From: Gammaproteobacteria bacterium
GTDB lineage: Bacteria; Pseudomonadota; Gammaproteobacteria; Pseudomonadales; Azotimanducaceae
Length of the DNA: 64,000 nucleotides
NCBI GenBank assembly: GCA_026709225.1
Contig: JAPOTJ010000050.1
Coordinates: 1 to 64,000, forward strand
Reading direction: 5' to 3'
A program made the translations under genes and the position numbers. The notes under the pieces were generated by a model. It was not told the DNA's origin. It ran no database searches and saw only the letters and a program-made list of their open reading frames with translations. Each line of letters opens with the position of its first letter. The stretch's first letter is position 1. Shown piece after piece: positions 7,826-31,769 of the stretch.

Positions 7826-9154
7826 ATGTCCAGAATTCGTGATTGGTGCGCCGAGAAAGAGATCAAGCACGTTGAATGCCTCGTGCCCGATTTCTTCGGT
7901 GTCGCCAAGGGCAAGGTGGTTGAAGCATCAGCAGTTGATTCGGGGGACCTTCGCATAGCCGAATCCTTGTTTGGCCAGGATATTCTCGGCCACTGGGTCG
8001 AGGACGACGAATTGATCGATGTCGCCGATATCGACATGACACTTGTCCCTGACGCCGCGACGCTCGTCCCGCAGCCTTGGGCGGATGGCTTCGCGCAGTG
8101 CATTTGCGACTGTGAGACCTTGCGCGGCGACGCCCTTGAACTCGCGCCGAGAAGCATCCTCAGGCGCATGGTCGCGAAATTCGCGGCGATGGAACTCGAC
8201 GCGATTGTCGCGCAAGAAGCTGAGTTCTACCTGCTCGAACCCAATCGCGATGCGAAAGAGCCGGTGAAAGCAGCGGCGGGCAGGTCCGGGCGGGTGATGA
8301 ACACGCCGCGCTCGTTTCAAACCGAAGCGCTCGCTGAGTACGCGCCGTTCGTGGAGTCTCTTCGCGCCTTCGCTGCTGCGCAAGGCATTCAGGTCACTTC
8401 GGCCGAGCAGGAAATGGGACAAGGGCAGATTGAAGTGAACTTCGAGCACGGCCTCGCGCTCGCCAAGGCCGATGAGATGTTCTACTTCAAACGCCTCGCC
8501 AAGGAGGCGGCGCTCGCGCACGGCAAGATCGCGAGCTTCATGGCCAAGCCCATGAGCGATGCGGCGGGCAGCGCCATGCACCTGCATCAAAGCTTGACGT
8601 CTACAGCGACGAGCAAGAACGGCTTTGTCGATAAGAATGGCCGTTTGAACAAGCGATTCCACGCCTATCTTGGCGGCTTGCAGAAATACACGCCGCCTGC
8701 GATCGCACTATTCGCGCCGAGCGTCAATTCGTTTCGCCGCTTTGAAGGCGCCGAATCCTGCCCGACCAACGTCGAGTGGGGGTTCGATAACAGGAGCGCT
8801 GGCTTCAGGGTGCCGAAATGCGACGCCGCTGCGACGCGCATCGAGAACCGCATTCCCGGTGCCGACAATAATCCATACCTTGCGATCGCCGTCAGCCTCG
8901 CCTGCGGCTATCTCGGCATTCAAGAACACCTCAAGCCGTCTGATCCCGTTGCCGGCAGCGCGTGGGATCGTGGCTTCGGCTTTCCGCGCACCTTGTCTGA
9001 TGCGCTTGATGCGCTGGAGAACTGCGAGCCACTGATCGATCTTTTGGGCGAGCGCTTTGTCAAGCTTTTTGTTTTGATGCGGCGCGACGAAGTCGAGGAC
9101 TTTTCGAAGATCGTGACCGAATGGGAGCGCGAGCATCTGCTGTTGGTGGTGTAG
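7826..9154 (+). CDS. puuA: Glutamine synthetase family protein, PuuA-like gamma-glutamyl-amine ligase
   Basis: Predicted 442-aa ATP-dependent ligase of the glutamine-synthetase superfamily. Seen: N-terminal IKHVECLVPDFFGVAKGKV, characteristic of gamma-glutamylputrescine synthetases rather than GlnA; VAQEAEFYLLEP, with metal-binding Glu; GSAMHLHQSL (ATP/metal loop); NSFRRFEGAESCPTN; and EWGFDNRSAGFRVP. There is no adenylylation-loop region typical of GlnA. Expected reaction: putrescine (or another amine) + glutamate + ATP to the gamma-glutamyl amide, the first step before PuuB. It stands alone on the plus strand. Confidence 0.82.
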   Translation: MSRIRDWCAEKEIKHVECLVPDFFGVAKGKVVEASAVDSGDLRIAESLFGQDILGHWVEDDELIDVADIDMTLVPDAATLVPQPWADGFAQCICDCETLRGDALELAPRSILRRMVAKFAAMELDAIVAQEAEFYLLEPNRDAKEPVKAAAGRSGRVMNTPRSFQTEALAEYAPFVESLRAFAAAQGIQVTSAEQEMGQGQIEVNFEHGLALAKADEMFYFKRLAKEAALAHGKIASFMAKPMSDAAGSAMHLHQSLTSTATSKNGFVDKNGRLNKRFHAYLGGLQKYTPPAIALFAPSVNSFRRFEGAESCPTNVEWGFDNRSAGFRVPKCDAAATRIENRIPGADNNPYLAIAVSLACGYLGIQEHLKPSDPVAGSAWDRGFGFPRTLSDALDALENCEPLIDLLGERFVKLFVLMRRDEVEDFSKIVTEWEREHLLLVV

Positions 9155-9175
9155 CATCGGCCCACATACCGCGCA

Positions 9176-9937
9176 CTACTGTTCGTTGCCTCCCACAAGT
9201 GTGCCGAGCGTCGGGCCGATCTCTCGATGCAGGACAAGGTCGGCGAGGTCATCAAGCGGCGTTGCTTCTCGATTCAGGATGACGAGGCGGGCGCCACGCC
9301 GCTTGGCGAGCTCAGGGAACCCCGCCGCCGGATAGACAACGAGCGACGAGCCAACCACCATGAACAGGTCGCAGGCTCCGGTTTCGAGTTCTGCTCGCCG
9401 CATCTCGTTCTCCGGCATGGCTTGGCCGAAGGAGATGGTTGCCGATTTGATGAGGCCACCGCACTGAAAGCAGGGGGCGATTGCTTGCTGTTCTTGCCAT
9501 TGCCCTCGCAACTCGTCGAGCTCGTAGCGCTTGCCGCAAGTGAGGCACGAGGCATAGCTGGCATTGCCGTGCAACTCGATCACCTTGTTTTCCGGCACGC
9601 CCGAAGTTTGATGCAAGTTGTCAACATTCTGCGTGATCACGGCGCTTGCTTTGCCGCTGTCGATCAAACGAGCGATGGCGATGTGCCCGATGTTCGGCTG
9701 GGCTGAGTTGAGGCGGTCGCCGCCGTCGAATCGCCGCCGCCACGACTCGTGTCGTGCCTCGGCGGAATTGACAAAATCGGTGAACTCGATGGGCTTCATG
9801 GTGGACCAGATGCCGCCGGGACTGCGAAAATCTGGAACGCCGGATTCGGTGCTGATGCCAGCGCCGGTGAAGAACACGACGCGCTCAGCGGCATCGATCA
9901 TTGCGGCGAGTTCGTGCGCTTCGGTTATTTCGGTCAT
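9176..9937 (-). CDS. NAD-dependent protein deacylase (sirtuin)
   Basis: Predicted 253-aa Sir2-family enzyme removing acyl groups from lysines with NAD as cosubstrate. Seen: TGAGIST (24-30), ESGVPDFRSPGGIW, TQNVDNLHQTSG (102-113), catalytic His123 in IELHGN, and four zinc cysteines (131, 134, 156, 159). The ATG at 9935-9937 is chosen; the frame stays open to 10003 but that stretch is not family-like and would overlap the divergent methyltransferase. Length matches bacterial CobB-type sirtuins. Confidence 0.92.
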   Translation of the reverse strand: MTEITEAHELAAMIDAAERVVFFTGAGISTESGVPDFRSPGGIWSTMKPIEFTDFVNSAEARHESWRRRFDGGDRLNSAQPNIGHIAIARLIDSGKASAVITQNVDNLHQTSGVPENKVIELHGNASYASCLTCGKRYELDELRGQWQEQQAIAPCFQCGGLIKSATISFGQAMPENEMRRAELETGACDLFMVVGSSLVVYPAAGFPELAKRRGARLVILNREATPLDDLADLVLHREIGPTLGTLVGGNEQ

Positions 9938-10001
9938 AATGCGTGCGGATTCAACTTGCCGCCATTGTAAGCGGTGGTGTCGCGACAATTCGGGAGTGCG
10001 C

Positions 10002-10619
10002 ATGGCTGGATTTTATGATCGTGTGATACTGCCACGGCTACTGAACTGCGCTATGTCTCAACAGCAAATGGCGAGGGTGCGCGCGAAGATCGTCCCCGAA
10101 GTGTCGGGCGACATTATCGAGATTGGCTTTGGTTCGGGGCTCAACCTTGGTTATCTCAGTCCGGAGGTGCGGTCGGTGACTGCGGTCGACCCGTCGGAAG
10201 GGCTGCATAGGCTCGCAGCGCCGCATATCGAAGCGAGCCGTGTCGATGTGATTCATATGCGAACCAGTGCCGAGGCGCTGCCGTGCGAATCGAGTAGCTT
10301 TGACGCCGCGCTCTGCACTTGGAGCCTGTGTACGATTCCTGACCCGATCGCCGCGCTTGACGAACTGCGCAGGGTCTTGAAACCAGGCGGGATGCTGGCC
10401 TTCATCGAGCACGGCGCGTCTCCGGATGCGGGCGTTCGTCGCTGGCAGGACAGAATCAACCCTATTTGGAACAAGATTGGCGGCGGCTGCAATCTGAACC
10501 GCGTACCCGATGCCATGCTTCGCGAGTCGGGCTTCAAGGTCAAGCGCATGGATGCCGGTTATATTCCCGGTCCGAAAATCGCGACCTACACGTTTCGCGG
10601 TGTGGCGCAGCCGATTTAA
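10002..10619 (+). CDS. Class I SAM-dependent methyltransferase
   Basis: Predicted 205-aa UbiE/COQ5-like methyltransferase. SAM motif I is DIIEIGFGSGLNLGYL (37-52), the acidic end of strand 2 is AVDPSEG, and motif II-III regions are FDAALCTWSLCTIPDP and ELRRVLKPGGMLAFIEHG. The start at 10002 has GGGAG five bases upstream; the frame stays open much further upstream, but only over the antisense of the sirtuin gene. The substrate is not evident. It converges on a GST gene with a 4-bp overlap at the stop codons. Confidence 0.88.
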   Translation: MAGFYDRVILPRLLNCAMSQQQMARVRAKIVPEVSGDIIEIGFGSGLNLGYLSPEVRSVTAVDPSEGLHRLAAPHIEASRVDVIHMRTSAEALPCESSSFDAALCTWSLCTIPDPIAALDELRRVLKPGGMLAFIEHGASPDAGVRRWQDRINPIWNKIGGGCNLNRVPDAMLRESGFKVKRMDAGYIPGPKIATYTFRGVAQPI

Positions 10620-11350
10620 GCGTCGCGCTTGGCTTTCTCGGCTTCGGCGAGCACGCTCGCGCCGCTTTGCTCGAACATGCGCTTGCGATGTGCTTCGCTG
10701 ATCTTTGCCGGATCGGTCACCTTGTCCTTGCCGACTTCCACACCGCGCTGCAAGGCTGGCCGCGTCTTCAAGGTATCGAACCAGCGCCGCACATTGGGAT
10801 AGGCGTCCATGCTTTGTCCAAAGCGCTTGTAGGGCAGCACCCAAGGAAAGGACGCCATATCAGCGATCGAATACTCGCCCGCAAGGCACTCCCGCTCTGA
10901 GAGGCTGCGCTCCATCACCGCAAACAAGCGGTCGTACTCACCTGCATAGCGGGTGTGGGAATACTCGTGTGCGAGCGCGCCACCGGGCGCGTAGTTGACG
11001 AAGTGCGACAACTGTCCCGCCATTGGCCCAAGTCCGCCAACCTGCCAGAACAGCCACTGGTAGACTGAACAGCGATCGCGTTGATTGCGCGGCAGGAACT
11101 TGCCGGATTTTTCAGCGAGGTAAAGCAGAATCGCGCCGGATTCAAAGATTGAAAGTTCTCCCCCGGGCGCATCGTGGTCGACAAGTGCTGGCATACGGTT
11201 GTTTGGACTGATGCGCAGGAACTCTGGTGTGAATTGATCGCCCGCGCCGAGATTGACTGGCACAATGCGGTAGGGCAGGCCGCATTCTTCGAGCATGATG
11301 GTGATTTTCCAGCCGTTTGGCGTGGGCGCAAAGTAGAGGTCGATGGCCAT
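10616..11350 (-). CDS. GST-family disulfide-bond oxidoreductase (YfcG/YghU-like)
   Basis: Predicted 244-aa GST. The N-terminal LYFAPTPNGWKITIMLEE with TPNGWK (10-15) and ISPNNRMPALVDHD (cis-Pro region, 47-60), then ESGAILLYLAEK, are characteristic of the nu-class/YfcG group, which acts as glutathione-dependent disulfide reductases rather than classical conjugating transferases. A C-terminal basic tail extends slightly past the domain. It starts at ATG 11350 and is separated from the secretion operon by only 27 bp, but seems functionally unrelated to it. Confidence 0.87.
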   Translation of the reverse strand: MAIDLYFAPTPNGWKITIMLEECGLPYRIVPVNLGAGDQFTPEFLRISPNNRMPALVDHDAPGGELSIFESGAILLYLAEKSGKFLPRNQRDRCSVYQWLFWQVGGLGPMAGQLSHFVNYAPGGALAHEYSHTRYAGEYDRLFAVMERSLSERECLAGEYSIADMASFPWVLPYKRFGQSMDAYPNVRRWFDTLKTRPALQRGVEVGKDKVTDPAKISEAHRKRMFEQSGASVLAEAEKAKRDA

Positions 11351-11377
11351 GTCTTTCTTCTGTCAGGCGTGGTGCCC

Positions 11378-12730
11378 TCAAGTTTCCTTCATCGCACGGC
11401 CGAGCGAACTTGTGAGCGGCGCAATCAGATAGTCAAGAAACGTGCGCTCGCCCGCTAGGATAGTCACCTCGACTGGCACGCCTGGCTTGAAGCCGCCTTC
11501 GATCCCTTCGAGTTTGCTTAGTTCTTCAACGTCAAAGCCGATGCGGCTCGAATAGAACAGGAATCCAGAGTTGCGCTCTTCAAAGGCGTCGGCCGATACC
11601 CACTCAACGGTGCCGTTGATCTCGGGGACGTTGCGCGCACTCAGTCCGCTTAAGCGAATGCGCACCGGCAGGCCGACATCGACGCTGTCACGATCAAGCG
11701 AATTGACGCGCGCTTCGACGACGAGGCGATCATCCTCCGGCACCACTTGCAGCACCTCGGCGCGCGGCTCAATGACGGCTTGCGCGCTGTGCACGGCGAG
11801 GCCGAGAACGATGCCGTCATCAGGTGCCCGGATATCGGTGCGGTCAAGCACGTCGCGCGCCGTTGCCAACTGTTCGCGCACATCCGAAAGGACGGATTGG
11901 GCATCGACGAGTTCCGTATTGATGCTCTTCTGCGCTTCCGAATCGAGCTGGCTGATCTCGAATTCGGTCTCGCTTTTCTTTTCTTGGAGCGCTCCGATCT
12001 CCGACAGGAGCTGGCCGATCTCACCTTGGATCTGCGACCTGCGGTTTTGCAGCTCGTAGACTTCCGAAATCGCAGCGAGCTGCTCGGCTTGCAGGGCTTC
12101 GGTCTTCTCAAGCTGGGCACTGGTGACTTCGAGCCGCTCTTCGCTCGCTTGCAATTGCTGTTCCTTGCCTTCGACTTGATTCTCGATCTGTAGCACGCGC
12201 TGGCGCAGGATATTGGCTTGCCCGCGCAGCTCTTCCTTGCGGCTTTCAAAGAGTGCCGTCTGGTCATCGATCGTCTTTTGCAATTGCTCATTCGGGGCGT
12301 AGGCGAGTAGGCGTTCAGACCAGATGATTTCATCGAGATTGCGCTGCTCGGAGACGAGGCGGTCTACAGTGGATTGCGCGGTGAAGAAGCGCCCAGTAAG
12401 CAGGTCGAGCTCCGCCTGCGCCTTGGTCTTGACGAGCTCGATGAGCACTTGACCCGCGCTCACCTGATCGCCGTCGCGCACATGAATTTGCTCGACAATG
12501 CCGCCTTCGAGATGCTGCACGGATTTGCGATTGCCTTCCACGACCACGCGGCCTGAAGCGACCGCGCCTTCCGCGAGTGTTTGCAGCGACGCGAACAGAA
12601 AGAGTCCGAGGAAACCGAAGACAAATGCGAGCACGCCTACCAAGACCCACGGGTCGCGCAGCGCGCGCCTCATTTCCGGCGGTGGCGTGTTGGTGTCCGG
12701 TTCGAGCGCATTGGCAAGGTCGATTTGCAT
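11378..12730 (-). CDS. HlyD-family type I secretion periplasmic adaptor
   Basis: Predicted 450-aa membrane-fusion protein. One N-terminal transmembrane helix (about 30-52) is followed by a biotinyl-lipoyl half (VVVEGNRKSVQHLEGG), a long coiled coil (about 95-290), the second lipoyl half (DIRAPDDGIVLGLAVHS) and a C-terminal beta-barrel ending in the family motif PGVPVEVTILAGERTFLDY. It bridges the inner-membrane ABC exporter to a TolC-type channel. It follows the ATPase gene after three bases, so the two are an operon. No TolC gene is adjacent; the NodT-type lipoprotein at 30 kb belongs to another family. Confidence 0.92.
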   Translation of the reverse strand: MQIDLANALEPDTNTPPPEMRRALRDPWVLVGVLAFVFGFLGLFLFASLQTLAEGAVASGRVVVEGNRKSVQHLEGGIVEQIHVRDGDQVSAGQVLIELVKTKAQAELDLLTGRFFTAQSTVDRLVSEQRNLDEIIWSERLLAYAPNEQLQKTIDDQTALFESRKEELRGQANILRQRVLQIENQVEGKEQQLQASEERLEVTSAQLEKTEALQAEQLAAISEVYELQNRRSQIQGEIGQLLSEIGALQEKKSETEFEISQLDSEAQKSINTELVDAQSVLSDVREQLATARDVLDRTDIRAPDDGIVLGLAVHSAQAVIEPRAEVLQVVPEDDRLVVEARVNSLDRDSVDVGLPVRIRLSGLSARNVPEINGTVEWVSADAFEERNSGFLFYSSRIGFDVEELSKLEGIEGGFKPGVPVEVTILAGERTFLDYLIAPLTSSLGRAMKET

Positions 12731-12733
12731 GAC

Positions 12734-14554
12734 TTACCCCGCCTGCCCGCTCGGCGCAGGCTTGAGCTTGTCGCGAGTAGGCCCGCTGTGTACGCCACCG
12801 TGTCCATTGAATACCACGAGATGCTCGGTGACTGCGAGGAGTTGCGGGTCGTGGCTGATGAGAATAATGGTCGCGTGGCCGCCCTTCAGCCCTTCAAGCG
12901 TCTTACGCAGGCGCACGGCGCTGTGTACATCAAAGCCTGTGTCAGGCTCGTCAAGAATAAGCAGGGCGGGGTTGCCGAACAGCGCGCGTGCCAGCGAAAT
13001 CGCTTTTTGCTGCGCACCTGAGAGGTTTCGCCCAAACGGCTCAAGCTTGGTGTCGTAGGCGTTCGGCAGGCGCAGAATCAACTGTTCGACGCCTGTCGCG
13101 CGCGCCGCGGCGACGACGGCATCGTGGGAAACGCCTTCGCGAAAGCGCGAAATATTGTCGGCAACGGTGCCTTCAAACAGCTCGGATTCTTGTGGCAGGT
13201 AGCCGACGTAGCGCCCACGGTCCTCGCTTGGCCATTGATGCACATCGACGCCGCCAAGCCGAACCTTGCCTTCGAGCGGTTTCCAACTGCCGGTGATCAC
13301 GCGCCCAAGTGTTGATTTGCCGGAAGCATTTGGCCCGACGATGCCAACGAGCGTGCCGCCCGGTACGTTGATGCCGAAATTCGTGAGTAGGGGATCGTCA
13401 ACGCCTGGTGGCGCGATCGACAGATTTTGGACGATCAGGTTGCTTTGCGATATGTCGATCGGCTTCGAGTCGCGGCTGAAATCAATGTCCGTCGATGCCT
13501 GCTTGAGGCGCTGCCATGCGTTGCGCGACGAAATAAAGTTGCGCCACGCGCCGATCGCTTGGTCGAGCGGCGCCAATGCGCGGCCCATGATGATCGATGC
13601 GGCGATCATGACGCCGGGTGTGACGGCAGGCGGGTTTTGCAGAACAAGGTACGCTCCGGCGCCCAGAATCGCCGATTGCAAGCTGAGCCGCACGGTCTTC
13701 GAAACCCCTGACATGCTTCCAATCAGGTCGCTGGCGCGCCCTTGCCAGCCGGTGGCGGCTTCGTGGCTCTGCTTCCAACGTTTGGTAAGCGACTCACCCA
13801 TGCCCATCGATTGCACGACGGATTGGTTCTTCTGCACCATGTTCGTCATTCTTGAAGCGATGTTGCGAAAAGGAATGGCGCGCTGCATGGGCGGCTGAGA
13901 CAGACGGTTGACGGTGAGCGCCATACTGAACATGAAAATGGCGCCGACGAGTGCGATTGACCCCAGCAGTGGATGCATGATGAAGATGACGAGGATGTAG
14001 ATCGGGCTCCACGGCGCATCAAAGAACGCGAACAGGGCAGGCGATGTGAGCATCCCGCGCACCGAGTCCATGTCGTTCAGCAATTGATTTGAACCTTTCG
14101 TGTCTTTCGGGCCGGTGGCGCGCGACAAGGATTTGAAGAGTCCCGGCGTCAGTTCCTTGTCAACAGCCTGCGCCACCCTTATCATGCTGCGCGACCTCGC
14201 CACCTCCAACAGCGCGAGGACTGCGAACAGGCCAGCCACGAGCAGGCTCAAGGCGAGCAGCGTGTCCATGGAGCGTGAGCTCAATACGCGATCATAGAGC
14301 TGGAGCATGTACATGGGTGCGGTGAGCATCAGCAGATTGGTGCCGATGCTCAGCACGAAGACGCCGACAAAGGTCTTGCGAAGACGCTCTAGCGAGCGAC
14401 CGAATGGCGAGTGCGCCGCAAGCGGCACTTCGTTGTTGTTGAGGATCTTAGCGATGCGTTCCCAAAACCAAGTCGTGAGCCGCTGCCAAGGCGACTGAGG
14501 TTGGGTTGACGGCTGCGCGACTTGTCCTAGCGCGTGAAAGTGCTCATCGGCCAA
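12734..14554 (-). CDS. Type I secretion ABC transporter, PrtD/AprD family
   Basis: Predicted 606-aa permease/ATPase. The N-terminal half has ABC-exporter membrane helices (about 60-345) without a C39 peptidase domain. The ATPase half has Walker A GPNASGKST (407-415), signature LSGAQ (511-515, instead of LSGGQ) and Walker B LLILDEP (531-537). It starts with TTG at 14552-14554, supported by AGGAG seven bases upstream. PrtD-type systems export RTX-like proteins with a C-terminal uncleaved signal. No substrate gene is recognisable in the neighbourhood. Confidence 0.93.
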   Translation of the reverse strand: MADEHFHALGQVAQPSTQPQSPWQRLTTWFWERIAKILNNNEVPLAAHSPFGRSLERLRKTFVGVFVLSIGTNLLMLTAPMYMLQLYDRVLSSRSMDTLLALSLLVAGLFAVLALLEVARSRSMIRVAQAVDKELTPGLFKSLSRATGPKDTKGSNQLLNDMDSVRGMLTSPALFAFFDAPWSPIYILVIFIMHPLLGSIALVGAIFMFSMALTVNRLSQPPMQRAIPFRNIASRMTNMVQKNQSVVQSMGMGESLTKRWKQSHEAATGWQGRASDLIGSMSGVSKTVRLSLQSAILGAGAYLVLQNPPAVTPGVMIAASIIMGRALAPLDQAIGAWRNFISSRNAWQRLKQASTDIDFSRDSKPIDISQSNLIVQNLSIAPPGVDDPLLTNFGINVPGGTLVGIVGPNASGKSTLGRVITGSWKPLEGKVRLGGVDVHQWPSEDRGRYVGYLPQESELFEGTVADNISRFREGVSHDAVVAAARATGVEQLILRLPNAYDTKLEPFGRNLSGAQQKAISLARALFGNPALLILDEPDTGFDVHSAVRLRKTLEGLKGGHATIILISHDPQLLAVTEHLVVFNGHGGVHSGPTRDKLKPAPSGQAG

Positions 14555-21832: not shown

Positions 21833-22016
21833 TTACGGGAGATTCTCTTCGAGCTCACCTCGGCGGACGAGTTTCACCAAGCCTTCCATGTCGCGAAGTG
21901 TGGCGTCCGGGAAACGTTCCTGCAGACAGTCGGCATTGCGAATGTGCCTGCGATGACATGGTCTCGTTGCGCGTCGTGGCAATAGTAACGAATGTGGATG
22001 GTGTTTGGATGGCGAA
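21833..22016 (-). pseudogene. Possible frameshifted small ORF upstream of fic
   Basis: Two minus-strand frames join into one plausible sequence if one base is restored near 21938: HPNTIHIRYYCHDAQRDHV in one frame and NADCLQERFPDATLRDMEGL plus VKLVRRGELEENLP in the next, ending at TAA 21833-21835. There is no clear start codon. I do not recognise the family. The rest of the 21815-22232 gap contains the divergent promoters of fic and the efflux operon but no clear motif. Confidence 0.3.
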
Positions 22017-22232
22017 CTGGCTTGCTGTTTTCGCAGCCTGATGTCGGCTGTTACGTTCGCCGATCCATCCCCACTCCACTCGAGAAGCGTTTTGGGAAAG
22101 CGTCTTGATGTACCATCTCTCTTTTGCAACGAGGTGGGTGCGGCTGTTTGCCGTGGCGCTTCCTCCGTAGTTCGGCGCCGCGGAGCATGTCTCACATCTA
22201 GCCCTCGTGTACTGTTGGAGCTTGGCACTCGC

Positions 22233-23492
22233 ATGGGCAGACGCACAGGTTACTTGATCGCCGCTGGCATCGTCATTGGCGCTTTCGCTGTTGCCGCGAT
22301 TATGGTGTCACTCGCGCCGCAGCCTGAGCGGCGAGAGCCGCCTTCGCAATTTCCCTATGTCGAGACAGCCGAGATCATCGCGGGAACTGATTTCATCCCT
22401 GTATACGGTGCGGGCACCGTGCGACCAAGCGCCGAAATAGACCTCGCGCCGCAGGTGGGCGGGCGCATTGTCTGGGTCGCCCCGGGCTTTCGCAGCGGCG
22501 GACGTGTTGATCGAGGGCAGCTGCTGTTTCGCATTGAGGAGGCTGACTACCAGCATCGTGTGCGCGACGCCGAGGCGGCGCTCGCGGCTCGGCAGGTTGC
22601 TTTGCTGGAAGCGCGAGGGAACGTGGTCATCGCGCGCGCCGAGTACGAGCGCTTCGCCGCCCGCAAAGATCAGAATGTAGACGAGATGCGCGCGCCGGCG
22701 AATCCGCTGGCCTTGCGCGAGCCGCAGCTCGATGCGGCAGAAGCAGCGCTGAAGCGGGAAGAAGCGCAGCTTGCGGCGGCGCAGCTCGATTTGTCCCGCA
22801 CGCGGGTGAGCGCGCCGTTTGACGGGTTTGTTCGCGAAGAGTCGGTCGATATCGGTCAGCTGGTCGTGCCGGGCGAGTCTGTCGGGCGGTTGTTTGCTGC
22901 CGATGCGGCTGAAGTGGTTGTTCCGCTATCCGACGCTGAAGCAGCGCTGATTCCCGGCCTTTGGGCGTTGTCGGCGGCAGCGAGCGGGCGCGAAGCGAAA
23001 GATCAGCGGGTCGCCGCCCGCGTGATTGCCGACTACGGCGGCGATCGCTACGCTTGGCCGGGTCATGTGGACCGGGCTGAGCGGTCACTTGACGAACGCA
23101 CGCGAACAATTGAAGTGATCGTGCGTGTACCTGAGCCGTTTGCGGCGGGCGAGCCGGTCGATGTTGACTACAGGGCGGAAGCGCATGCGCCACCGCTTCT
23201 GGTTGGAAAGTTTGCGGAAGTGGTGATCGAAGGTGCATCGCCAACGAACTATGTCCGAGTCCCGCGCGACGCGCTTCAGCCGGGCGATGAGGTCTGGACA
23301 GTCGGGGAGGCCGGTGCCGTGCGCATCGTTCGCGCGCGCGTTCTGCAGCGTGGCAACGACGAGGTGTTCGTCACCGGCGCGTTTGAACCACGTTCCTTGG
23401 TCATCATCAGCGGATTGCAGGTCGCCACGGACGGCATGACCGTGCGCAGCGCAGCGCAGGACGCAGCGGCAGCGCCGTCTTCGCGTCCATGA
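22233..23492 (+). CDS. RND efflux periplasmic adaptor (membrane fusion protein)
   Basis: Predicted 419-aa HlyD-like adaptor. One N-terminal transmembrane helix (GYLIAAGIVIGAFAVAAIMV) is followed by GAGTVRPSAEIDLAPQVGGR (lipoyl half 1), a short alpha-hairpin with QLDAAEAALKREEAQLAAA, lipoyl half 2 (LSRTRVSAPFDGFVREESV) and a beta-barrel. ATG 22233 starts the membrane helix directly; GGAG lies 12 bases upstream and an in-frame TTG at 22215 is possible. The stop overlaps the next ATG (ATGA), so it is translationally coupled to the pump. Substrate unknown. Confidence 0.9.
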   Translation: MGRRTGYLIAAGIVIGAFAVAAIMVSLAPQPERREPPSQFPYVETAEIIAGTDFIPVYGAGTVRPSAEIDLAPQVGGRIVWVAPGFRSGGRVDRGQLLFRIEEADYQHRVRDAEAALAARQVALLEARGNVVIARAEYERFAARKDQNVDEMRAPANPLALREPQLDAAEAALKREEAQLAAAQLDLSRTRVSAPFDGFVREESVDIGQLVVPGESVGRLFAADAAEVVVPLSDAEAALIPGLWALSAAASGREAKDQRVAARVIADYGGDRYAWPGHVDRAERSLDERTRTIEVIVRVPEPFAAGEPVDVDYRAEAHAPPLLVGKFAEVVIEGASPTNYVRVPRDALQPGDEVWTVGEAGAVRIVRARVLQRGNDEVFVTGAFEPRSLVIISGLQVATDGMTVRSAAQDAAAAPSSRP

Positions 23493-26400
23493 AGGGCGCC
23501 GACCCTTACCTCGGAGAGCCTTCCGGGCCAATCGCCTTCATGGCGGCCAATCCTGTGGCCGCCAACCTGCTCATGATCGGCATTCTGGCGGCCGGATTTA
23601 TCGCCATGACCGGCTTGCAGCGCGAGGCTTGGCCAACGCTCGCATACGACATGATTGAGATCTCCGTGCCCTATCCGGGTGCCAACCCCGAGGAGGTCGA
23701 GGAATCGATTGTCGTGCCCATCGAACAGCGGGTTCGCGGTCTCGACGATATTAAGAGCGTGCGGTCGGTGGCTGCCGCAGGCATCGCGTCCTTGCGCCTT
23801 GAGCTCAAAACCGGCGTCGATGCGAGCGACGTGATAGACACTGTCGAATCCACGGTCGGGCAAGTCCGTTCGCTGCCACAGGCGAGCGAGCGTCCGGTGA
23901 TTCAGGAAATGACAAACCGGCAGAGCATCATCCGTCTTATCGTCCACGGCGATGTGCCGGAGCGGGCATTGAAGGAGATCGCGCGCGCTATTGAAGACGA
24001 GCTCGTCGCTTTGCCCGCCGTGTCCCAAGTCGAGACTACTGGCACGAGGGACTATGAAGTTTCGATTGAAGTGCCGCTCGCACGGCTGCGCGAGCTCGGG
24101 CTCACATTGGACGACATTGCGAATGCGATTCGGCAATCGTCGCTCGAACTCTCTGCCGGCAGCATCGAGTCAGATCGTACCGAGGTGCGAGTGCGCACGC
24201 TCGGCCAACGCTATCGTCAGCATGAGTTTGAATCCGTCGTCGTTTTGAGCGATTCCGACGGCAGCGTGCTGCGCGTCGGCGATATTGCCGAAGTCCGTGA
24301 TGGGTTTCGAGAGACCGGCCTGATCGTGCGTCATATGGGCCGCCCCGCTGTCTTCGTCGAGGTGTTCCAGTCTGACGGTGAGCGGGTCATGGATGTGGCC
24401 ACATCAGTTCGCGAGCATCTTGCCGAGGTCGTTTCGCCGCAACTACCGCCGGGCGTGGAAGTGACGATTTGGAATGACGACACCAAAAGCTACTCGGAGC
24501 GCGTGAATCTGCTGCTGAAGAACGGTGGCCTCGGCCTGCTGCTGGTGCTGATCGCCCTCACCTTGTTCCTTGACATGCGTCTCGCCGTCTGGGTGGTGGC
24601 GGGCTTGGCGACTTCAATGATTGGCGCGTTTGCGGTGCTGCTGGTGCTCGGTATCTCGATCAACGCCATATCGCTGTTCGTCTTTGTCCTTGGCATCGGC
24701 ATCGTTGTCGATGATGCCATCATTGTCGCCGAACATATCCATGAAGAGCGCCAGAAAGGGGTGCCGGGCGTTGTTGCCGCGATCCGTGGCACACGGCGAA
24801 TCAAGGGGCCGCTCACCTTTGCGGTGCTGACTTCGGTGGCTGCATTCACTCCTATATTCCTCATGCCAGGCGGGCTCGGCGAATTTTGGCTGGCGTTGCC
24901 GGTGGTCGTGATCGCCATGCTGGTGATTTCTCTGGTTGAATCACTGTTCATCCTGCCGCACCATCTCTCCACGCTGCCACTTGCGAGTGAATCGCCTGCG
25001 ACCCAAGTGCAGCGGCAACTTCGCCGCATTCGAGACGGCGTGGACGCCTCGCTCAAGCGCTTTGTGAACGGCCCGCTTGATCGCTCAGTGCGTTTCGCCA
25101 CAGAGCAGCCCGCAGTGATCATGGCGGGGGCCGTGTCTGCCCTTGTGCTTAGTATTTCTCTCGTGGCTGCGGGCGTTGTCCGCACCACCTTCGCGGACGA
25201 GATCGAAGGCGACTTTGTGGTTGGCAGCTTGGAGATGTCTCCTGGCACGGCGGCTGAGCGCACGTTCGAGGTTGCGCGTCGCCTTGAAGATGCCGGGCGG
25301 CGGGTGATCGAGCGGTTGTCCGCCGCACAAGGCGAGGGCGCGCAGCCACTCTTGTCCGGAGTCACCATCAACGTCGGGGCGGAGCCGCGCATTGAAGGCG
25401 GCGGCATCGTCGCGAAGCCAACGCTCGAACCCATGCCGAATGTGGCAACGATCGAGTTCAAGCTGGTGAGTGCCGGAGAGCGCGACATCTCGGCGGTCGA
25501 TGTCGCAGATGCGTGGCGTGAAGAGGTGGGTATTCTCCCTTATGTTCGCGGTGTCGCGTTCAGTGGCGAGGTGCTTGCCTTGGGCAAGCCTGTGGAAGCG
25601 GTGCTGTCCCATCCCGATTCTGCCACGCTGATCCCCATTGCCGAATCCGTTGTCGCCGGCCTGCGCGCGACCGAAGGCATTTTTGATGTGCGCTCGGACC
25701 ATGCGCCGGGCGTGCGCGAAATGCAGCTCGAATTGCGCCCCGCTGCGCGCAGCCTCGGGTTCACCTTGGAGGACTTGGCGCAACAAACCCGTTGGGCGCT
25801 GTTTGGTGCCGAGGCGTTCCGTATGCAGCGCGACCGCGAGGAGGTCGAGGTATTCGTGCGCTTGCCTGAGGACGAGCGCAACGCCGTCACCGACCTTGAG
25901 CAACTTGTCGTGCGAACTTCGGAAGGCGTTGAGGTGCCGCTCAGTCGTGTCGCCGTGCTGAAGCCTGGTCGCGAACCGACAACGATTCAGCGCAAGGACG
26001 GCAATCGCGTCGTCACCGTCACTGCGGAAGTCGACACGGCTGTGCTGTCTGCGGGCGCCGCAAACGCCCATCTCGCCAACTCGATTCTGGCCGAGTTGGT
26101 TGAGAGCAATCCCGGCCTGACCTTCAGCTACGGCGGTGAGCAGCAGCAGCAGCAGGAATCCATGGGCGCGATGCTGCGCGGGTTTGCCTTGGCGTTGCTA
26201 TTCATGTTCGCCATGCTTGCCATTCCGCTCCGTTCCTACGGCAAGCCGGTTATCGTCATGGCCATCATCCCGTTCGGCCTGATCGGCACAATTTGCGGAC
26301 ACTGGGTGCTCGGCGTGCCGATCGCGGCGACCACGGTGATGGCGTTCTTCGGATTGAGCGGCGTTGTCGTCAACGATTCCCTGGTGATGCTCGATTTTAT

Positions 26401-26689
26401 TGAGCAGCGGCGACGGGAGGGCGATGCTGCGCGCACCGCGATCATCGAAGGCGCGAAGGCGCGCTTCCGTCCCATCCTACTGACGTCTCTCACGACTTTT
26501 CTCGGCTTTACCCCGCTCATTCTTGAGCGCGCCATCCAAGCCCAGTTTCTGGCGCCGTTCGCTGCCACGCTCGGCGTTGGTATCCTTGTCACCACGGTGA
26601 TTCTGATGCTCGTAACGCCAGCGCTCGCCGCGGTCTATTTGCGTGTCAATGCGCGACGGCCTCATCAAGAGGGCGCCGCCGCGATCTAG
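23489..26689 (+). CDS. RND-family efflux pump, inner-membrane permease
   Basis: Predicted 1066-aa AcrB/MdtB-like proton antiporter. Seen: N-terminal TM1, YPGANPEEVEESIVVPIEQ (porter-domain signature), GIGIVVDDAIIVAEH with the proton-relay Asp pair near residues 408-409, a second TM repeat from about 860, and FGLSGVVVNDSLVMLDFI, typical of the HAE-1/hydrophobe group. The length is normal. Together with the adaptor it would need an outer-membrane channel; the NodT-family gene at 30.2 kb on the other strand is a candidate. Its stop codon lies inside the left terminal repeat of the following palindromic element. Confidence 0.93.
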   Translation: MKGADPYLGEPSGPIAFMAANPVAANLLMIGILAAGFIAMTGLQREAWPTLAYDMIEISVPYPGANPEEVEESIVVPIEQRVRGLDDIKSVRSVAAAGIASLRLELKTGVDASDVIDTVESTVGQVRSLPQASERPVIQEMTNRQSIIRLIVHGDVPERALKEIARAIEDELVALPAVSQVETTGTRDYEVSIEVPLARLRELGLTLDDIANAIRQSSLELSAGSIESDRTEVRVRTLGQRYRQHEFESVVVLSDSDGSVLRVGDIAEVRDGFRETGLIVRHMGRPAVFVEVFQSDGERVMDVATSVREHLAEVVSPQLPPGVEVTIWNDDTKSYSERVNLLLKNGGLGLLLVLIALTLFLDMRLAVWVVAGLATSMIGAFAVLLVLGISINAISLFVFVLGIGIVVDDAIIVAEHIHEERQKGVPGVVAAIRGTRRIKGPLTFAVLTSVAAFTPIFLMPGGLGEFWLALPVVVIAMLVISLVESLFILPHHLSTLPLASESPATQVQRQLRRIRDGVDASLKRFVNGPLDRSVRFATEQPAVIMAGAVSALVLSISLVAAGVVRTTFADEIEGDFVVGSLEMSPGTAAERTFEVARRLEDAGRRVIERLSAAQGEGAQPLLSGVTINVGAEPRIEGGGIVAKPTLEPMPNVATIEFKLVSAGERDISAVDVADAWREEVGILPYVRGVAFSGEVLALGKPVEAVLSHPDSATLIPIAESVVAGLRATEGIFDVRSDHAPGVREMQLELRPAARSLGFTLEDLAQQTRWALFGAEAFRMQRDREEVEVFVRLPEDERNAVTDLEQLVVRTSEGVEVPLSRVAVLKPGREPTTIQRKDGNRVVTVTAEVDTAVLSAGAANAHLANSILAELVESNPGLTFSYGGEQQQQQESMGAMLRGFALALLFMFAMLAIPLRSYGKPVIVMAIIPFGLIGTICGHWVLGVPIAATTVMAFFGLSGVVVNDSLVMLDFIEQRRREGDAARTAIIEGAKARFRPILLTSLTTFLGFTPLILERAIQAQFLAPFAATLGVGILVTTVILMLVTPALAAVYLRVNARRPHQEGAAAI

Positions 26690-26950
26690 GGCGTGTTAAC
26701 ACTATGCCCGCCGACGCTGTTGTCGCCTGTGCAAGAGCCGAAAGAGCCGATTCGCACGCCCCAAAGTGTTTGCTCCGGCTCTTGCTCAGGCGACAACCCT
26801 TCGGGCCGGCCCCGTTTTCCGCCAGCCTTCGTTCTCGCTCGCTCATGTGGGGTAGGCCACACAGCGCTTGCTCGGCCTTGTCTGGCGGAAAACGGGTCTC
26901 GGCAGCGTCAACGTACATAGTGTTAACGCGCCCTAGTGTGAACACGCCCT
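26686..26950. mobile_element. MITE-like palindromic element with 21-bp terminal inverted repeats
   Basis: The ends 26686-26706 and 26916-26936 are inverted repeats matching at 20 of 21 positions (CTAGGGCGTGTTAACACTAT core). Inside are two further hairpins: 26719-26740 with 26776-26797 (22 bp, one mismatch) and 26811-26825 with 26882-26896 (15 bp, perfect). A variant third end copy, AGTGTGAACACGCCCT, follows at 26935-26950. The element has no coding capacity and fills the gap between two convergent genes, contributing the stop codons of both. It could act as a bidirectional terminator. The family is not identified. Confidence 0.8.
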
Positions 26951-27968
26951 AAGTGAATCGCATCACGTCGTGAAGGATGCACAGTGGAATCGGGCCGAAC
27001 GCAAGAATTGAACCGACCACGAACAGCCATTTGCTTGCGGCCTCCGGGATCGGGCGCCGAACAATTGTTTCAAACGCGGCATAGATCATCGCCAAGCCAT
27101 CGACTACCGGTCCCGGCAGCAGGTTAATCACGCCGAAGCCGAGCGAGAACAGCCCAAGCAACATGAGGACGGCGGCGACATCGAGATTGGAGGACTCCAA
27201 TCCCAACTGCGTGAGTTGCATGCCGCCGCCGAAATTCATGACGCTGATTGAACCGAACACCATCTTGAAACCGCCAATTGCCGTTGACCAGCCGATCTCG
27301 ACCGTCTTGACAAACGCCGAGAAAATGCCTACGAACGGGTTGCCGGACACTTCCGCATCGACGTTTTTACGGGTGATGCCGAAGTATTCGTACATGTCGA
27401 TCCAGGCGACGTCCGATTGCCACTCTTCGATCTCGAAGGCATAGTCGATGAGGTCTCCCTCACGAGCGACCGTCAGGTCGATGGTGCCGGTGTCGCCTGC
27501 GCGTCCGAGCAACGCGATGCCGACATCCCCCCAGGTTTCGGTATCCGCGCCGTCAACGCCGACGATGCAGTCCCCGTCCTGAAGTCCCGCGGTTGCGGCC
27601 ACACCCTTGTCGTCAACGACATCCAAGAACGCGCCCGGTGCGATGGGTGACATCAGATAGGCGGCGGTCAGCAGCAGGAACGTGCAGCCAAAGTTGGCAA
27701 GCGGTCCGGCGGAAGACGCGAACAGCCGTCGCCAGGCGGTCGCGGACTCATACGACGCCTTGTTGAAATGCACCGAAGCCACCGGCAGCACGCCAAACAG
27801 GTTCTCGGTGCCACTCGCCGAGGTCGATCTGTGGGCGATGGGGCCGACGCCGTAGAACATTCGGTCGACGCCAATGCCGACCATTCGCGCCGCAACCAAG
27901 TGGCCGAGCTCGTGGATGTAGTTAAAGACGATCCACGAGATGACAAGCAGAATGAGGACGAGTTCCAT
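26949..27968 (-). CDS. M50-family intramembrane metalloprotease (site-2 protease, RseP-like)
   Basis: Predicted 339-aa membrane protease. Zinc site HELGH is at 19-23 in TM1, a PDZ-like domain at about 115-190 (GLQDGDCIVGVDGADTETW), and the third metal ligand region NLLPGPVVDG near residue 285 (usual form NxxPxPxLDG). Four hydrophobic segments are visible. RseP homologues cut membrane-anchored substrates such as anti-sigma factors. This one is shorter than E. coli RseP (one PDZ domain) and is not in the usual dxr-rseP-bamA context. It follows the GPP34-P450 gene after nine bases, with its AGGAG overlapping that gene's stop region: clearly one operon. Confidence 0.88.
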   Translation of the reverse strand: MELVLILLVISWIVFNYIHELGHLVAARMVGIGVDRMFYGVGPIAHRSTSASGTENLFGVLPVASVHFNKASYESATAWRRLFASSAGPLANFGCTFLLLTAAYLMSPIAPGAFLDVVDDKGVAATAGLQDGDCIVGVDGADTETWGDVGIALLGRAGDTGTIDLTVAREGDLIDYAFEIEEWQSDVAWIDMYEYFGITRKNVDAEVSGNPFVGIFSAFVKTVEIGWSTAIGGFKMVFGSISVMNFGGGMQLTQLGLESSNLDVAAVLMLLGLFSLGFGVINLLPGPVVDGLAMIYAAFETIVRRPIPEAASKWLFVVGSILAFGPIPLCILHDVMRFT

Positions 27969-27977
27969 CAGTGGCTC

Positions 27978-30020
27978 CTAAGTTGCATGCATAGGGCATC
28001 CGCCAGTAGGTTCGACCGCGACGGAAACCTTGTGGGAATCGGGGAAGGGGCGCTTGTCGCGTACTCGGAATCGGAGCGACTTGCGCGGTGAGGTGGAGGG
28101 CATCGCCTTGATCTTGATCGGGTAGCTCGAGGGCAGCACCTCCAAATCGAAGTGGTGCGCGATCTGAAGGATGTTGAAGGCCAATTGCGATTCGACCAGC
28201 CGCGAGCCGAGGCATGTGTGGGTGCCGAGCCCGAATACGGCATAGGCGCCATGCTTGCGCTTCTCGACCTCTTCGGGCAGGTGTCGGTCGATGTCGAACG
28301 CCTCCGGGTTCGGGAAGTTCTCTTCCAAGTAGTGGGCGGCGCTCGAAGCCACCACCACTTGGCTGTTGACGGGAATCTCAAAGCCTGCGATGGAACAGGT
28401 GTTCGCGGCGTGGCGGATTTGCAAGGGCACCGGCGCGTAAAGGCGCAGCGTTTCCAGGAGCAGCCGACGCGCCACATCGGCATCTTCGATGGAGAACTTC
28501 TCATGGCCCGCTTCGTCCTGGTCGAACAGTCGTGCCGCTTCCGCCTTGACACGCGCCAGCAATTCCGGACGCGAGTACATCTCACACATCGCGAATGCGA
28601 GCGTGTAGCCGGTGTAGATGGGCGGTAGGAGCGTCATAATGAAGGCATACATCATGTCCGCTTCAGGGAAGAACTGAGGGTCTGCTATGTGCAGGCTTAT
28701 GTAGTCGTCGAGCAGGTCTCGAGCCGTGTCCTCGCGCTGAGCCGGCGTGTGCGAGGATTTCATGAATGCAAACATCTTGTCGAGCTGCTTGCGCTTGGAA
28801 CGCATACTCGGCGTGCGAAGCATGAATTTCGGCAGCAGTCCCTGCACATGCGTGAGCAGGGCGCGACTTTTGTACGAGAACACGGTGTCCATGTGTTCGA
28901 ATTCGCGAAAGGAGCTTTTCAATTGCCATGTTTGGCGGCTCATCAGGACGAGGAACGCATCACGCCCGATCTCGTCGCCGACTTTCCATTGGCTGAGCTC
29001 CTCGCGCAATTGCTGCGCCATGTCGCCAAAGCGCTCATCGAGCCGTGTCTTCGAATAGAATCCACTCAGCGCTTTGCGCATGCGGTAGTGCTCCGCGCCA
29101 TCCGTGCCCGATAGGGTTCGAGATGCGCCGAACACGCTCTCTAGACCGTTCAAATAGGTCTTGGAATGCAAAAAGAGCCGGCCTTTCCTGTTCACCCAAG
29201 CGTTCACGTCTTCTCCGGCGAGCACGTACATCAGCGGCTTGCGGGAGAAAGGGAGCGACAACATGAACACCGGGCCAAGCTCTCGGTAGAGTTCTGCCGT
29301 CGTCTTCCCGAAGTTGCCTTCCCAAGTGGCCCGCTTGAGAAGTAGTTTCCATATGCTCAACCGAGGTATCGGCTTTGCCGCGAGCTTCGGTAGTCGCTGC
29401 GACATCCATTCGACCGCCTCGGCGACCGTGCGCCCGAGCAGGTCGAGACCGCTGATCAATTCGATGCGATCAAGCGATTGCTCATAGTCATCCGGGTCGA
29501 GAAGGAAACGGAATGCGCCGCACGCATGAGCCAATCCGGTCACCGCCGCATCGCGAGGGTCGGGCAGCTCGTCGCTGAGAATGGTTGACTTGATGCGCTG
29601 GCGAACATCGGCGCGCTCGTCGGTGTCTCCCATGCGGAAGCCAGGGCGCCGCGCTTTGCGGGACAGCGACCAGAACCCGCCCAAAGCTTGTTCAAGTATG
29701 CCTCTCTCAACAAGGCGTTCCAGAATCGCATGGAGCATGTCGTCGGCTTGGCTGGCGGTCTTCTCAACCCAGTACCGCGGCGACTGATTGGGCTCTCCGC
29801 TGGCAATCGCCGCGAGAACGGGATCAAGAATCGCGTCGCCGAGAGGCGTGTCGTCGAGTAAAGTGAGTTGTTCCAAGTCCGTGTCGATGCGTGATTCAAA
29901 GGCGAGATCCATGAGCGTGCCGCCTGCAATGCCGCAAGCGAGCGTCCATCCGGAGACTTGCTCCAAATAGCCGCTTTCCTCACTCAGAAGAAGAAGAACT
30001 AACTCTTCTATAATTCTCAT
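27978..30020 (-). CDS. GPP34 (GOLPH3-like) domain fused to cytochrome P450
   Basis: Predicted 680-aa two-domain protein. Residues 1 to about 215 match the GPP34 family (EELVLLLLSEESGYL, GIAGGTLMDLAFESRID, DDTPLGDAILDPVLAAI, ERLVERGIL). GPP34/GOLPH3 binds PI4P in eukaryotic Golgi; in bacteria its role is unknown. Residues from about 225 to 680 are a P450: C-helix HYRMR (311-315), ExxR ETLR (523-526), and the heme loop FGLGTHTCLG (596-605, Cys603). The I-helix (about 463-480) lacks the usual AGx(D/E)T motif. No transmembrane helix or signal peptide is seen; the GPP34 domain may tether it to membrane lipids. AGGAG seven bases upstream supports ATG 30020. First gene of an operon with the M50 protease. 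Confidence 0.9.
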   Translation of the reverse strand: MRIIEELVLLLLSEESGYLEQVSGWTLACGIAGGTLMDLAFESRIDTDLEQLTLLDDTPLGDAILDPVLAAIASGEPNQSPRYWVEKTASQADDMLHAILERLVERGILEQALGGFWSLSRKARRPGFRMGDTDERADVRQRIKSTILSDELPDPRDAAVTGLAHACGAFRFLLDPDDYEQSLDRIELISGLDLLGRTVAEAVEWMSQRLPKLAAKPIPRLSIWKLLLKRATWEGNFGKTTAELYRELGPVFMLSLPFSRKPLMYVLAGEDVNAWVNRKGRLFLHSKTYLNGLESVFGASRTLSGTDGAEHYRMRKALSGFYSKTRLDERFGDMAQQLREELSQWKVGDEIGRDAFLVLMSRQTWQLKSSFREFEHMDTVFSYKSRALLTHVQGLLPKFMLRTPSMRSKRKQLDKMFAFMKSSHTPAQREDTARDLLDDYISLHIADPQFFPEADMMYAFIMTLLPPIYTGYTLAFAMCEMYSRPELLARVKAEAARLFDQDEAGHEKFSIEDADVARRLLLETLRLYAPVPLQIRHAANTCSIAGFEIPVNSQVVVASSAAHYLEENFPNPEAFDIDRHLPEEVEKRKHGAYAVFGLGTHTCLGSRLVESQLAFNILQIAHHFDLEVLPSSYPIKIKAMPSTSPRKSLRFRVRDKRPFPDSHKVSVAVEPTGGCPMHAT

Positions 30021-30171
30021 TCGCCGCTCCTGTGTTGGCTCGTGCGGACATGTGTGAGTCGATTATAGGTGAAACTCGGCGGTTGTGACGATATTGCCTG
30101 GCGCAGCTCTATCGCGGTTTGTGCGCCGGCAAGCAGCAGAGCATGGACAGTCCCGACCTGCCGTTCTCAGG

Positions 30172-31635
30172 TCAACGCGCTGAAGTCCACGCGCCGCCTA
30201 CCGCGCGATGCAGAGCGAGCTTGGAATGCGCGTGGTCGCGCTGTGCCGCCGACACCGCCGAGCGCGCGGCGATCAGCAATTGATCAGCGCTCAACAATTC
30301 GTCGTAACGTCCGACACCGGAGGCAAAGCGCTGCGCCTGCAGGCGTGATTCAGCTTCCGCATCGATGAACTGCGTGGCGAGCAGTGCGTGCCTCTCCTGG
30401 CTCGCTTCGAGACCGGCGAGTGCGGATTCGACCTCGCCTACGGCGGCGACCACGGATTGCCCGAAGGCCGCGAGCGCTTCTTGCAGCCTCGCTTCAGCGA
30501 GCGCGACATTGGCGCGCCGCCGCGCCCCCTGCAAGGTAGGCCCGAGCAGATTGAGGCCGATATTCTGGAACCATTGGTCGGGGTCGAAGAGTTCGTCGGA
30601 ATCCGTGCTTTGCAAGCCGATGACGCCCGAGATCGACAGCGAGGGAAGGAGTTCCGCGCGCCGGGCGCCGAGCGTGAAGCGGGCGGACTGCAAGCGCTGC
30701 CGAGCGGCATCCACATCGGGGCGCTGCGTAATAAGGTCCGCGGGAACGCCAACCGCGATGGCTTCCGGGCTCAAGACAATTTGGCTCTCGCTTGGCAGCA
30801 GGTCGGCGTGCTTTTCGCCGTAGCCGCCGAGCAGCATCCATAGCCTCGCCTCGGCACCGGCGCTCGCTGCCTTCATTTGCGGCAGCCTCGCGCGCGCATC
30901 GCGCAATTCCCTTCGCAGCGCATAGACGGGCAGCGCATCAACGAGGCCGCGCTCATAGCGACTCTCCACGAACGAAACGCGCTGCGACAGCACATCGACC
31001 ATGTCTTGCGCGAGCCTTTGCTGCGTTCGCGCTTCCATGACTTCGAGGTAGGTGCTGATCGTTTCCGCCAAGACCGCGATGCGCGCGGTCGAAAAATCCG
31101 CTTCGGAGGCAAGTTGCAGCGCGCCTGCTGCCAAGGCGTCTTGGCGGTGGCGACCCCAGAAGTCCGCCTCGTAGGCGAACTCCGCACTGAAAGAAAATGT
31201 GCGTAGCTGCAAACGGTCCGGCAAGGCGAACCCGAAGTCCTCAATGAGTTCGGGGCCGAAGCCGAGCTCATCGAGCTGCGCGCCGATGCCTGCGTTGGTC
31301 GGTGTTTCGAGATCCACTGCCGAGAGGGCTGGCGCGACTGACGGGAAGAAGGCAGCGCGGGCGATGCGCGCCCGCGCTCTCGCCTGCTCGACGCGGGCGA
31401 CCGCTTGACGCAAGTCGAGGTTGGCGGCGAGGGCAGCTTCCACGACGCGGTTGAGCGCAGGGTCGGCAAAGGATTCCCACCATGCGAGCGGACGGTGCGA
31501 ACTCGAGTCCGGGCTTGCCGAATAGGTCTCGGGCAGGCCGCTCGGCACATCCGAATAGGAGGGTGGTTGGGGCGCGTTGCTCGAACAGCTCGCGACAAGC
31601 AGCGCGGCCATGAAGAGCAGCCATGACTCGATCAA
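30172..31635 (-). CDS. NodT-family outer-membrane efflux lipoprotein (TolC-like)
   Basis: Predicted 487-aa outer-membrane channel. A lipoprotein signal ends in LLVASC; ESFADPALNRVVEAALAANL is the first family repeat, LGGYGEKHADLLP and PADLITQRPDVDAARQRL are the NodT signature, and a second repeat has coiled-coil helices. It would form the exit duct for an RND pump such as 22.2-26.7 kb, although it sits apart and on the other strand. Start TTG 31635 (GAGG just upstream) gives a normal lipoprotein signal; an upstream TTG 31692 is also possible and ATG 31611 would leave too short a signal. Confidence 0.87.
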   Translation of the reverse strand: MIESWLLFMAALLVASCSSNAPQPPSYSDVPSGLPETYSASPDSSSHRPLAWWESFADPALNRVVEAALAANLDLRQAVARVEQARARARIARAAFFPSVAPALSAVDLETPTNAGIGAQLDELGFGPELIEDFGFALPDRLQLRTFSFSAEFAYEADFWGRHRQDALAAGALQLASEADFSTARIAVLAETISTYLEVMEARTQQRLAQDMVDVLSQRVSFVESRYERGLVDALPVYALRRELRDARARLPQMKAASAGAEARLWMLLGGYGEKHADLLPSESQIVLSPEAIAVGVPADLITQRPDVDAARQRLQSARFTLGARRAELLPSLSISGVIGLQSTDSDELFDPDQWFQNIGLNLLGPTLQGARRRANVALAEARLQEALAAFGQSVVAAVGEVESALAGLEASQERHALLATQFIDAEAESRLQAQRFASGVGRYDELLSADQLLIAARSAVSAAQRDHAHSKLALHRAVGGAWTSAR

Positions 31636-31769
31636 GCGTCCTCGGAAGGCGGCAAAGGGCTTACAGAGCTGTCCGTTGGCGCGCGCGCGCAATTTCTACC
31701 GCTCTTAACTGCTGTGATGGCGAGCATTATAGCCTTCGCCTTATCGAGGTGATTCGGGACGTGATTCGC

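Follow-up and report, generated by a model that had tools for sequence, protein, structure and literature searches.

A GPP34–cytochrome P450 fusion found across bacterial phyla is a candidate sterol-modifying enzyme of sponge symbionts

A single gene in the 64,000-nucleotide stretch of DNA analyzed here (the window) joins a GPP34 (GOLPH3-like) domain to a cytochrome P450, and the fusion, which recurs in bacteria of several phyla, is probably an unrecognized enzyme for sterol reworking by symbionts. Based on its Rieske, SMT-like, and FAD oxidase neighbors across phyla, its co-occurrence with sterol genes, and CYP51s as the nearest solved P450s, we favor, on balance, a P450 that is associated with the membrane and acts on a sterol or a closely related triterpenoid; the sterol substrate, its acquisition, the anchoring, and the export are each what we infer. 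In many phyla the fusion has sterol and steroid enzymes and exporters as neighbors; this setting and the co-occurrence lend support to the lipid-modifying oxygenase that had been proposed from the window alone.

The gene is one 680-codon open reading frame at 28 kb with an ATG start (Table 1). The preliminary description gave its position correctly, left the strand, which is minus, unstated, and named an AGGAG-supported start, which is borne out. Pfam comparison of both halves, which it had suggested as a check, placed each above its cut-off: the GPP34-type N-terminus matches PF05719 (E 7.4e-35, 121.3 bits against a cut-off of 29.1, profile positions 2–199 of 201), and the remainder matches PF00067 (E 3.8e-32, 112 bits against a cut-off of 22.8). 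The ExxR motif and heme-cysteine loop reported there are indeed intact, with E523, R526, and C603 invariant in 84 aligned homologues. Matches of the P450 to NCBIfam are weak and all below cut-off, and by such sequence comparison no named P450 family fits this half of the protein.

Table 1. Features of the fusion gene and its surroundings, in window positions.
Feature	Position	Strand	Basis or remark
RND periplasmic adaptor	22005..23492	+	Homologues in 30 of 82 fusion loci
RND (AcrB-type) permease	23489..26689	+	Homologues in 43 of 82 fusion loci
M50 (site-2/RseP type) membrane metalloprotease	26949..27968	-	Pfam, 5.3e-30; 9 nt downstream of the fusion
GPP34–P450 fusion gene, 680 aa	27978..30020	-	Frame translation and Pfam; homologues
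Cytochrome P450 domain, residues 220–639	28104..29363	-	Pfam; CYP51 nearest; P450 fold
Heme-binding loop FGLGTHTCLG, residues 596–605	28206..28235	-	Cys603 in 84/84
ExxR motif, residues 523–526	28443..28454	-	E and R invariant, 84/84
I-helix region, residues 458–482, non-canonical PPIYTG	28575..28649	-	Tyr469 in 84/84
GPP34 (GOLPH3-like) domain, residues 4–204	29409..30011	-	Pfam; human GOLPH3 profile match
AGGAG ribosome-binding site, 6 nt from ATG	30027..30031	-	Sequence reading
Outer-membrane efflux protein (NodT/TolC type)	30172..31692	-	Homologues in 22 of 82 fusion loci

Among 58 examined relatives of the window's genome (G000), the fusion is present in a member of the same genus (G001) and in G007, G008, and G033, at 37–43% identity. 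An earlier search of GTDB contigs with the window protein as single query returned no match; a profile search of GTDB contigs with an alignment of the five fusions returned 325 relatives, and the best 80 loci among them were retained. These 80 and the family loci, the window included, amount to 82 loci with at least 85 full-length fusion genes, some loci holding two (one, L078, duplicates L028). Among the retained and family loci, full-length fusions lie on about 80 other contigs, at 37–54% identity to the window protein. Further copies were found in another gammaproteobacterial family (L143) and, in divergent form, beside a cyclase (L149). By record titles, the carriers belong to Gammaproteobacteria, Acidobacteriota, Nitrospinota/Nitrospirota, Chloroflexota (SAR202/Dehalococcoidia), Rhodothermota, and Actinomycetota. 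Three loci (L056, L092, and L107) contain two different GPP34–P450 genes within a few kilobases, and in L093 the second is partial; such pairs are possibly partner enzymes. In L029 and comparable frames, GPP34 seems to have a long N-terminal partner, probably the effect of an over-called start. At L149 (about 8900–13484), from a Holophagales MAG, a squalene-hopene-type cyclase gene in two frames (frameshift or decay) sits directly upstream of the divergent GPP34–P450 and a sulfotransferase.

Every source is a MAG, which might raise the suspicion of an assembly or binning artefact. This can practically be dismissed: the full-length copies on about 80 other contigs come from several projects, some of the contigs are chromosome-length (OX638xxx), and the GPP34 halves form one clade. 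An assembly join at the GPP34/P450 junction was rejected on the same recurrence, and the reading as one gene, for which separate halves in homologues had been named as the counter-evidence, stands. Literature searches on GPP34/GOLPH3 and P450, outside subscription papers and preprints, found no published account of such a fusion, in agreement with the earlier remark that none had been described.

The clade of the fused GPP34 halves has a support of 96 in a quick tree and stands apart from 16 other bacterial GPP34s. The tree of the P450 halves needs two changes, with GPP34-less P450s of G000 and G001 nested inside the fused clade. Together, the two trees suggest that there was probably one fusion event, followed by later loss of GPP34. 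The domain looks dispensable at times, given these two P450s and the shortened copy of G001 (L032:8688-10544, minus strand), which has lost about 82 residues of its GPP34 half in frame. The window's genome also has a P450 paralogue that lacks GPP34 (L039:9486-10796, minus strand), whose heme loop ends in CPAS rather than CxG and whose I-helix is degenerate. Mapping of the submitters' phyla onto the tree takes 11 changes against a minimum of 7, which hints at transfer. The FAD oxidase of G001, a gammaproteobacterium (L173:5738-7111), shares 76% identity with its counterpart at a Rhodothermales fusion locus (L059), likewise suggesting transfer.

In the window, the fusion is adjoined only by transporter genes and the M50 protease, with which it is probably co-transcribed; Rieske, CYP51, and ERG24 genes lie on other contigs. 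Elsewhere the neighborhood is richer. Clustering of the neighbors gave a KshA_C Rieske oxygenase in 46 of the 82 loci, an SMT-like methyltransferase in 35, an FAD oxidase in 26, and two MMPL families in 14 and 7; at least one tailoring enzyme is found at 61 loci, a transporter at 70, and both at 54, all of these counts being lower bounds because contig ends cut many loci. Since RND pumps are common, their link to the fusion is weak when taken alone. The best solved match of the Rieske profile is 3-ketosteroid 9alpha-hydroxylase (KshA; E 1.6e-34), which has the same domain architecture; KshA is a counterpart of this neighbor, whose KshA-type role is predicted from sequence, and not of the fusion. 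The SMT-like family shows SMT-like motifs and 40% identity to a sterol-operon SMT, and its members in L028 and L060 carry both a methyltransferase domain and Sterol_MT_C above cut-off. In one MAG (L105/L154), 1.2 kb separates the fusion from SMO-OSC, CYP51, ERG24, Rieske, and 3betaHSD-like genes, with SMT genes flanking both sides. One contig (L043/L182) combines the fusion with MMPL, sulfotransferase, DUF1214, SDR, ERG24-family reductase, and Rieske genes. The Rieske gene of G000 and G001 is found on another contig together with a sulfotransferase/DUF1214 pair and, for G001, the FAD oxidase as well; the same pair adjoins the sterol operon of G008.

Among 37 genomes of the family, the Rieske gene (E<=1e-40) and the ERG4/ERG24 reductase (PF01222, E<1e-30) each occur in all five fusion genomes and in none of the 32 others (Fisher p 2.3e-6 each). 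An SMT is present in three of the five, G000 and G001 yielding none, and in no other genome of the 37 (p 0.0013). These p values ignore kinship and overstate independence, as two of the five fusion genomes are congeneric. In the window's genome, CYP51 and ERG24 are 66% and 63% identical to true sterol-operon counterparts and lie beside mevalonate-type genes. Separate searches for both cyclase halves found neither the N nor the C domain in G000 or G001, nor was a squalene synthase found, at a completeness of 94–95%. The steroid gene cluster (ERG24, CYP51, and lanosterol synthase) is therefore incomplete in the window's genome, where no cyclase was detected, and complete in G008 and G058, which carry SMO-OSC. 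The contigs do not bear out the idea that a cyclase was cut off at their ends: CYP51 and ERG24 are more than 0.9 kb away from the end of C83 in G000 and of C28 in G001, with no cyclase beside them. With CYP51 and ERG24 present and squalene synthase and cyclase not detected, the window's genome probably takes its substrate from outside. Many carriers may likewise process acquired sterols, at a completeness that leaves room for a missed gene.

Judging from isolate names, 24 of the best 80 loci (of 325) presumably belong to a reef-demosponge MAG set and 19 to an Ircinia ramosa MAG set. The sponge species of the reef set are named in PMC8163846, and three more loci are Aplysina aerophoba bins, with accessions confirmed in PMC5649159. 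The remaining 34 (18 jk18x/p16x, 10 long-read, and 6 other MAGs) are without sponge assignment. The case that the carriers are largely sponge symbionts is thus strong but not complete.

A full-length AlphaFold model from 84 sequences (pLDDT 83, pTM 0.77) returned P450s in a Foldseek search, through its P450 half, among them M. capsulatus and human CYP51; M. capsulatus CYP51 also provides the nearest solved chains by profile. Membership in CYP51 was nevertheless rejected, as structural identity is 18–21% against a required 40% or more and the I-helix motif differs. Bacterial CYP51s, namely the Methylococcus capsulatus CYP51–ferredoxin fusion and the CYP51 of sponge-symbiont operons, resemble the GPP34–P450 in their P450 fold; the former is also a fusion, and the latter keeps the same sterol-gene company. 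They differ in being about 20% identical to it and in an I-helix reading AGHHT or AGQHT, whereas the fusion family has A-S/G-x-Y-L-G, and the M. capsulatus protein has a C-terminal ferredoxin in contrast to an N-terminal GPP34. Fusion-carrying genomes hold a separate, genuine CYP51, which in two of them reads AGQHTS. Tyr469 stands where the I-helix acid of P450s normally is, and position 470 across the 84 aligned homologues is Leu in 59, Met in 10, and Thr in 5, including Thr470 of the window protein. The usual acid–alcohol pair for O2 activation is missing from the fused P450s in this alignment. Because tyrosine replaces the acid and the alcohol is mostly lost, canonical monooxygenation by the fusion appears uncertain, and the unusual I-helix would make a non-standard reaction route plausible.

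The PI4P-contact residues of human GOLPH3 are W81, R90, R171, and R174. The GPP34 half matches human GOLPH3 (3kn1) over the full-length profile (E 1.6e-12); at these positions it has V22, A32, D93, and L96, with the alignment weak around R171/R174. Contact positions in the fused GPP34s are hydrophobic or acidic, and none of the 84 aligned sequences has Arg at position 32. The fusion was rejected as a PI4P effector because these residues are not conserved; of the membrane-lipid targeting suggested earlier, PI4P binding falls, and anchoring is retained as a role that GPP34 may have. Eukaryotic GOLPH3/Vps74 and the fusion share the Pfam domain, but the fusion lacks the PI4P-contact residues and the N-terminal extension and is joined to an enzyme. 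A single-sequence model of the GPP34 half (residues 1–214) reached a pLDDT of 38. In bacteria, GPP34 domains are also found in SCO4440 and other actinomycete GOLPH3-like proteins, which, unlike the fusion, stand alone, have no P450, and are tied to peptidoglycan changes (PMC12402492); by its own statement, this 2025 paper deals with proteins previously undescribed in prokaryotes. The domain is rare in the class Gammaproteobacteria, above cut-off in 8 of 369 sampled genomes. In other Gammaproteobacteria (G084 and G380), GPP34 is fused to a major-facilitator transporter (L133:1462-3351; L134:193-2097, minus strand; L147:1477-3387), and several GPP34 genes lie close together on contig C1 of G084.

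The cluster might instead act on a non-sterol lipid or a polyketide, the methyltransferase being a relative of cyclopropane synthases and the Rieske and FAD enzymes generic tailoring enzymes. CMAS is likewise among the matches of the methyltransferase, which among solved structures agrees best with other methyltransferases, and most fusion genomes tested, G007 and G033 included, lack an oxidosqualene cyclase. The Sterol_MT_C domain, the motifs and identity shared with the sterol-operon SMT, the KshA-type Rieske neighbor, and the exact co-occurrence with ERG4/ERG24 within the family make such an activity distinctly improbable. In another reading, the P450 half is no longer a monooxygenase and serves as a sterol-binding carrier or a rearranging enzyme (an isomerase or dehydratase, with CYP74-like logic). 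The invariant Tyr469 and an I-helix that in most members has lost its alcohol point this way, as does the near-canonical AALHT retained by the divergent fusion beside the cyclase; Cys603, ExxR, and the heme loop are strictly conserved, however, CYP51 too has His at the acid position, and the window protein keeps its Thr470, so that we consider this change of function unlikely.

The role of the GPP34 half allows an alternative of its own, in which the domain is not a lipid anchor but a protein adaptor that docks the P450 onto a membrane partner, be it a redox partner, the M50 protease, or a pump. By analogy, eukaryotic GOLPH3/Vps74 binds the tails of membrane glycosyltransferases. The lack of conservation at the PI4P-contact residues also speaks for an adaptor, and so does the M50 gene, which directly follows the fusion in L048, L049, L050, and L054 as it does in the window. 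Since the GPP34–MFS fusions need no anchor, an adaptor or regulatory role of GPP34 is conceivable. Against it, no single partner is common to all fusion loci, and partner binding by GPP34 is established in eukaryotes only; docking of this kind is less probable than not, if worth keeping in mind.

For a membrane-associated, sterol-modifying P450, a simple model would suggest that GPP34 most likely replaces the transmembrane anchor of eukaryotic sterol P450s. It would bind either a bacterial lipid different from PI4P or the tail of some membrane partner and so keep the heme domain at the inner membrane, on its cytoplasmic face, the place to which sterols partition. The P450 would act on the sterol together with the KshA-type Rieske enzyme and often an SMT-like methyltransferase, a flavin oxidase, and a sulfotransferase, and RND or MMPL pumps would move the product. 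In the window's genome, the substrate would probably come from the host or from other symbionts.

Unusual sponge sterols are biomarkers for the earliest animals, and whether they originate in the sponge or in its symbionts is disputed. In vitro, SMTs from bacterial symbionts of sponges alkylate sterols (PMC10070321), and sterol clusters have been described in Ircinia symbionts from ten phyla (PMC9531527) and, as the msb cluster, in a Melophlus symbiont (PMC7074536). These clusters resemble the fusion loci in their spread over many sponge-symbiont phyla, in their CYP51, ERG24, Rieske, and SMT genes, and in signs of transfer; the fusion locus differs in usually lacking the OSC core and in having a KshA-type Rieske enzyme and RND/MMPL pumps. 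The main text of PMC9531527 makes no mention of GPP34/GOLPH3, and PMC7074536 mentions no P450 by that name.

A conserved P450 in the steady company of SMT-like, Rieske, and reductase genes offers concrete enzymes to test for the origin of sponge sterols. The fusion also provides a setting in which the role of bacterial GPP34, on which little has been described (PMC12402492), can be tested, and its tyrosine-bearing I-helix should be of interest to P450 chemists. More generally, and tentatively, since we put it at somewhat short of even chances, the GPP34-anchored P450 with its invariant tyrosine could be the signature enzyme of a mobile, cross-phylum sterol-remodeling system of sponge symbionts, in which bacteria without a cyclase rework and export sterols of the host or of co-symbionts, and GPP34 could be a module that bacteria use generally, on membrane lipid enzymes as well as on transporters. 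The fusion suggests that some symbionts process sterols beyond what they are able to synthesize themselves.
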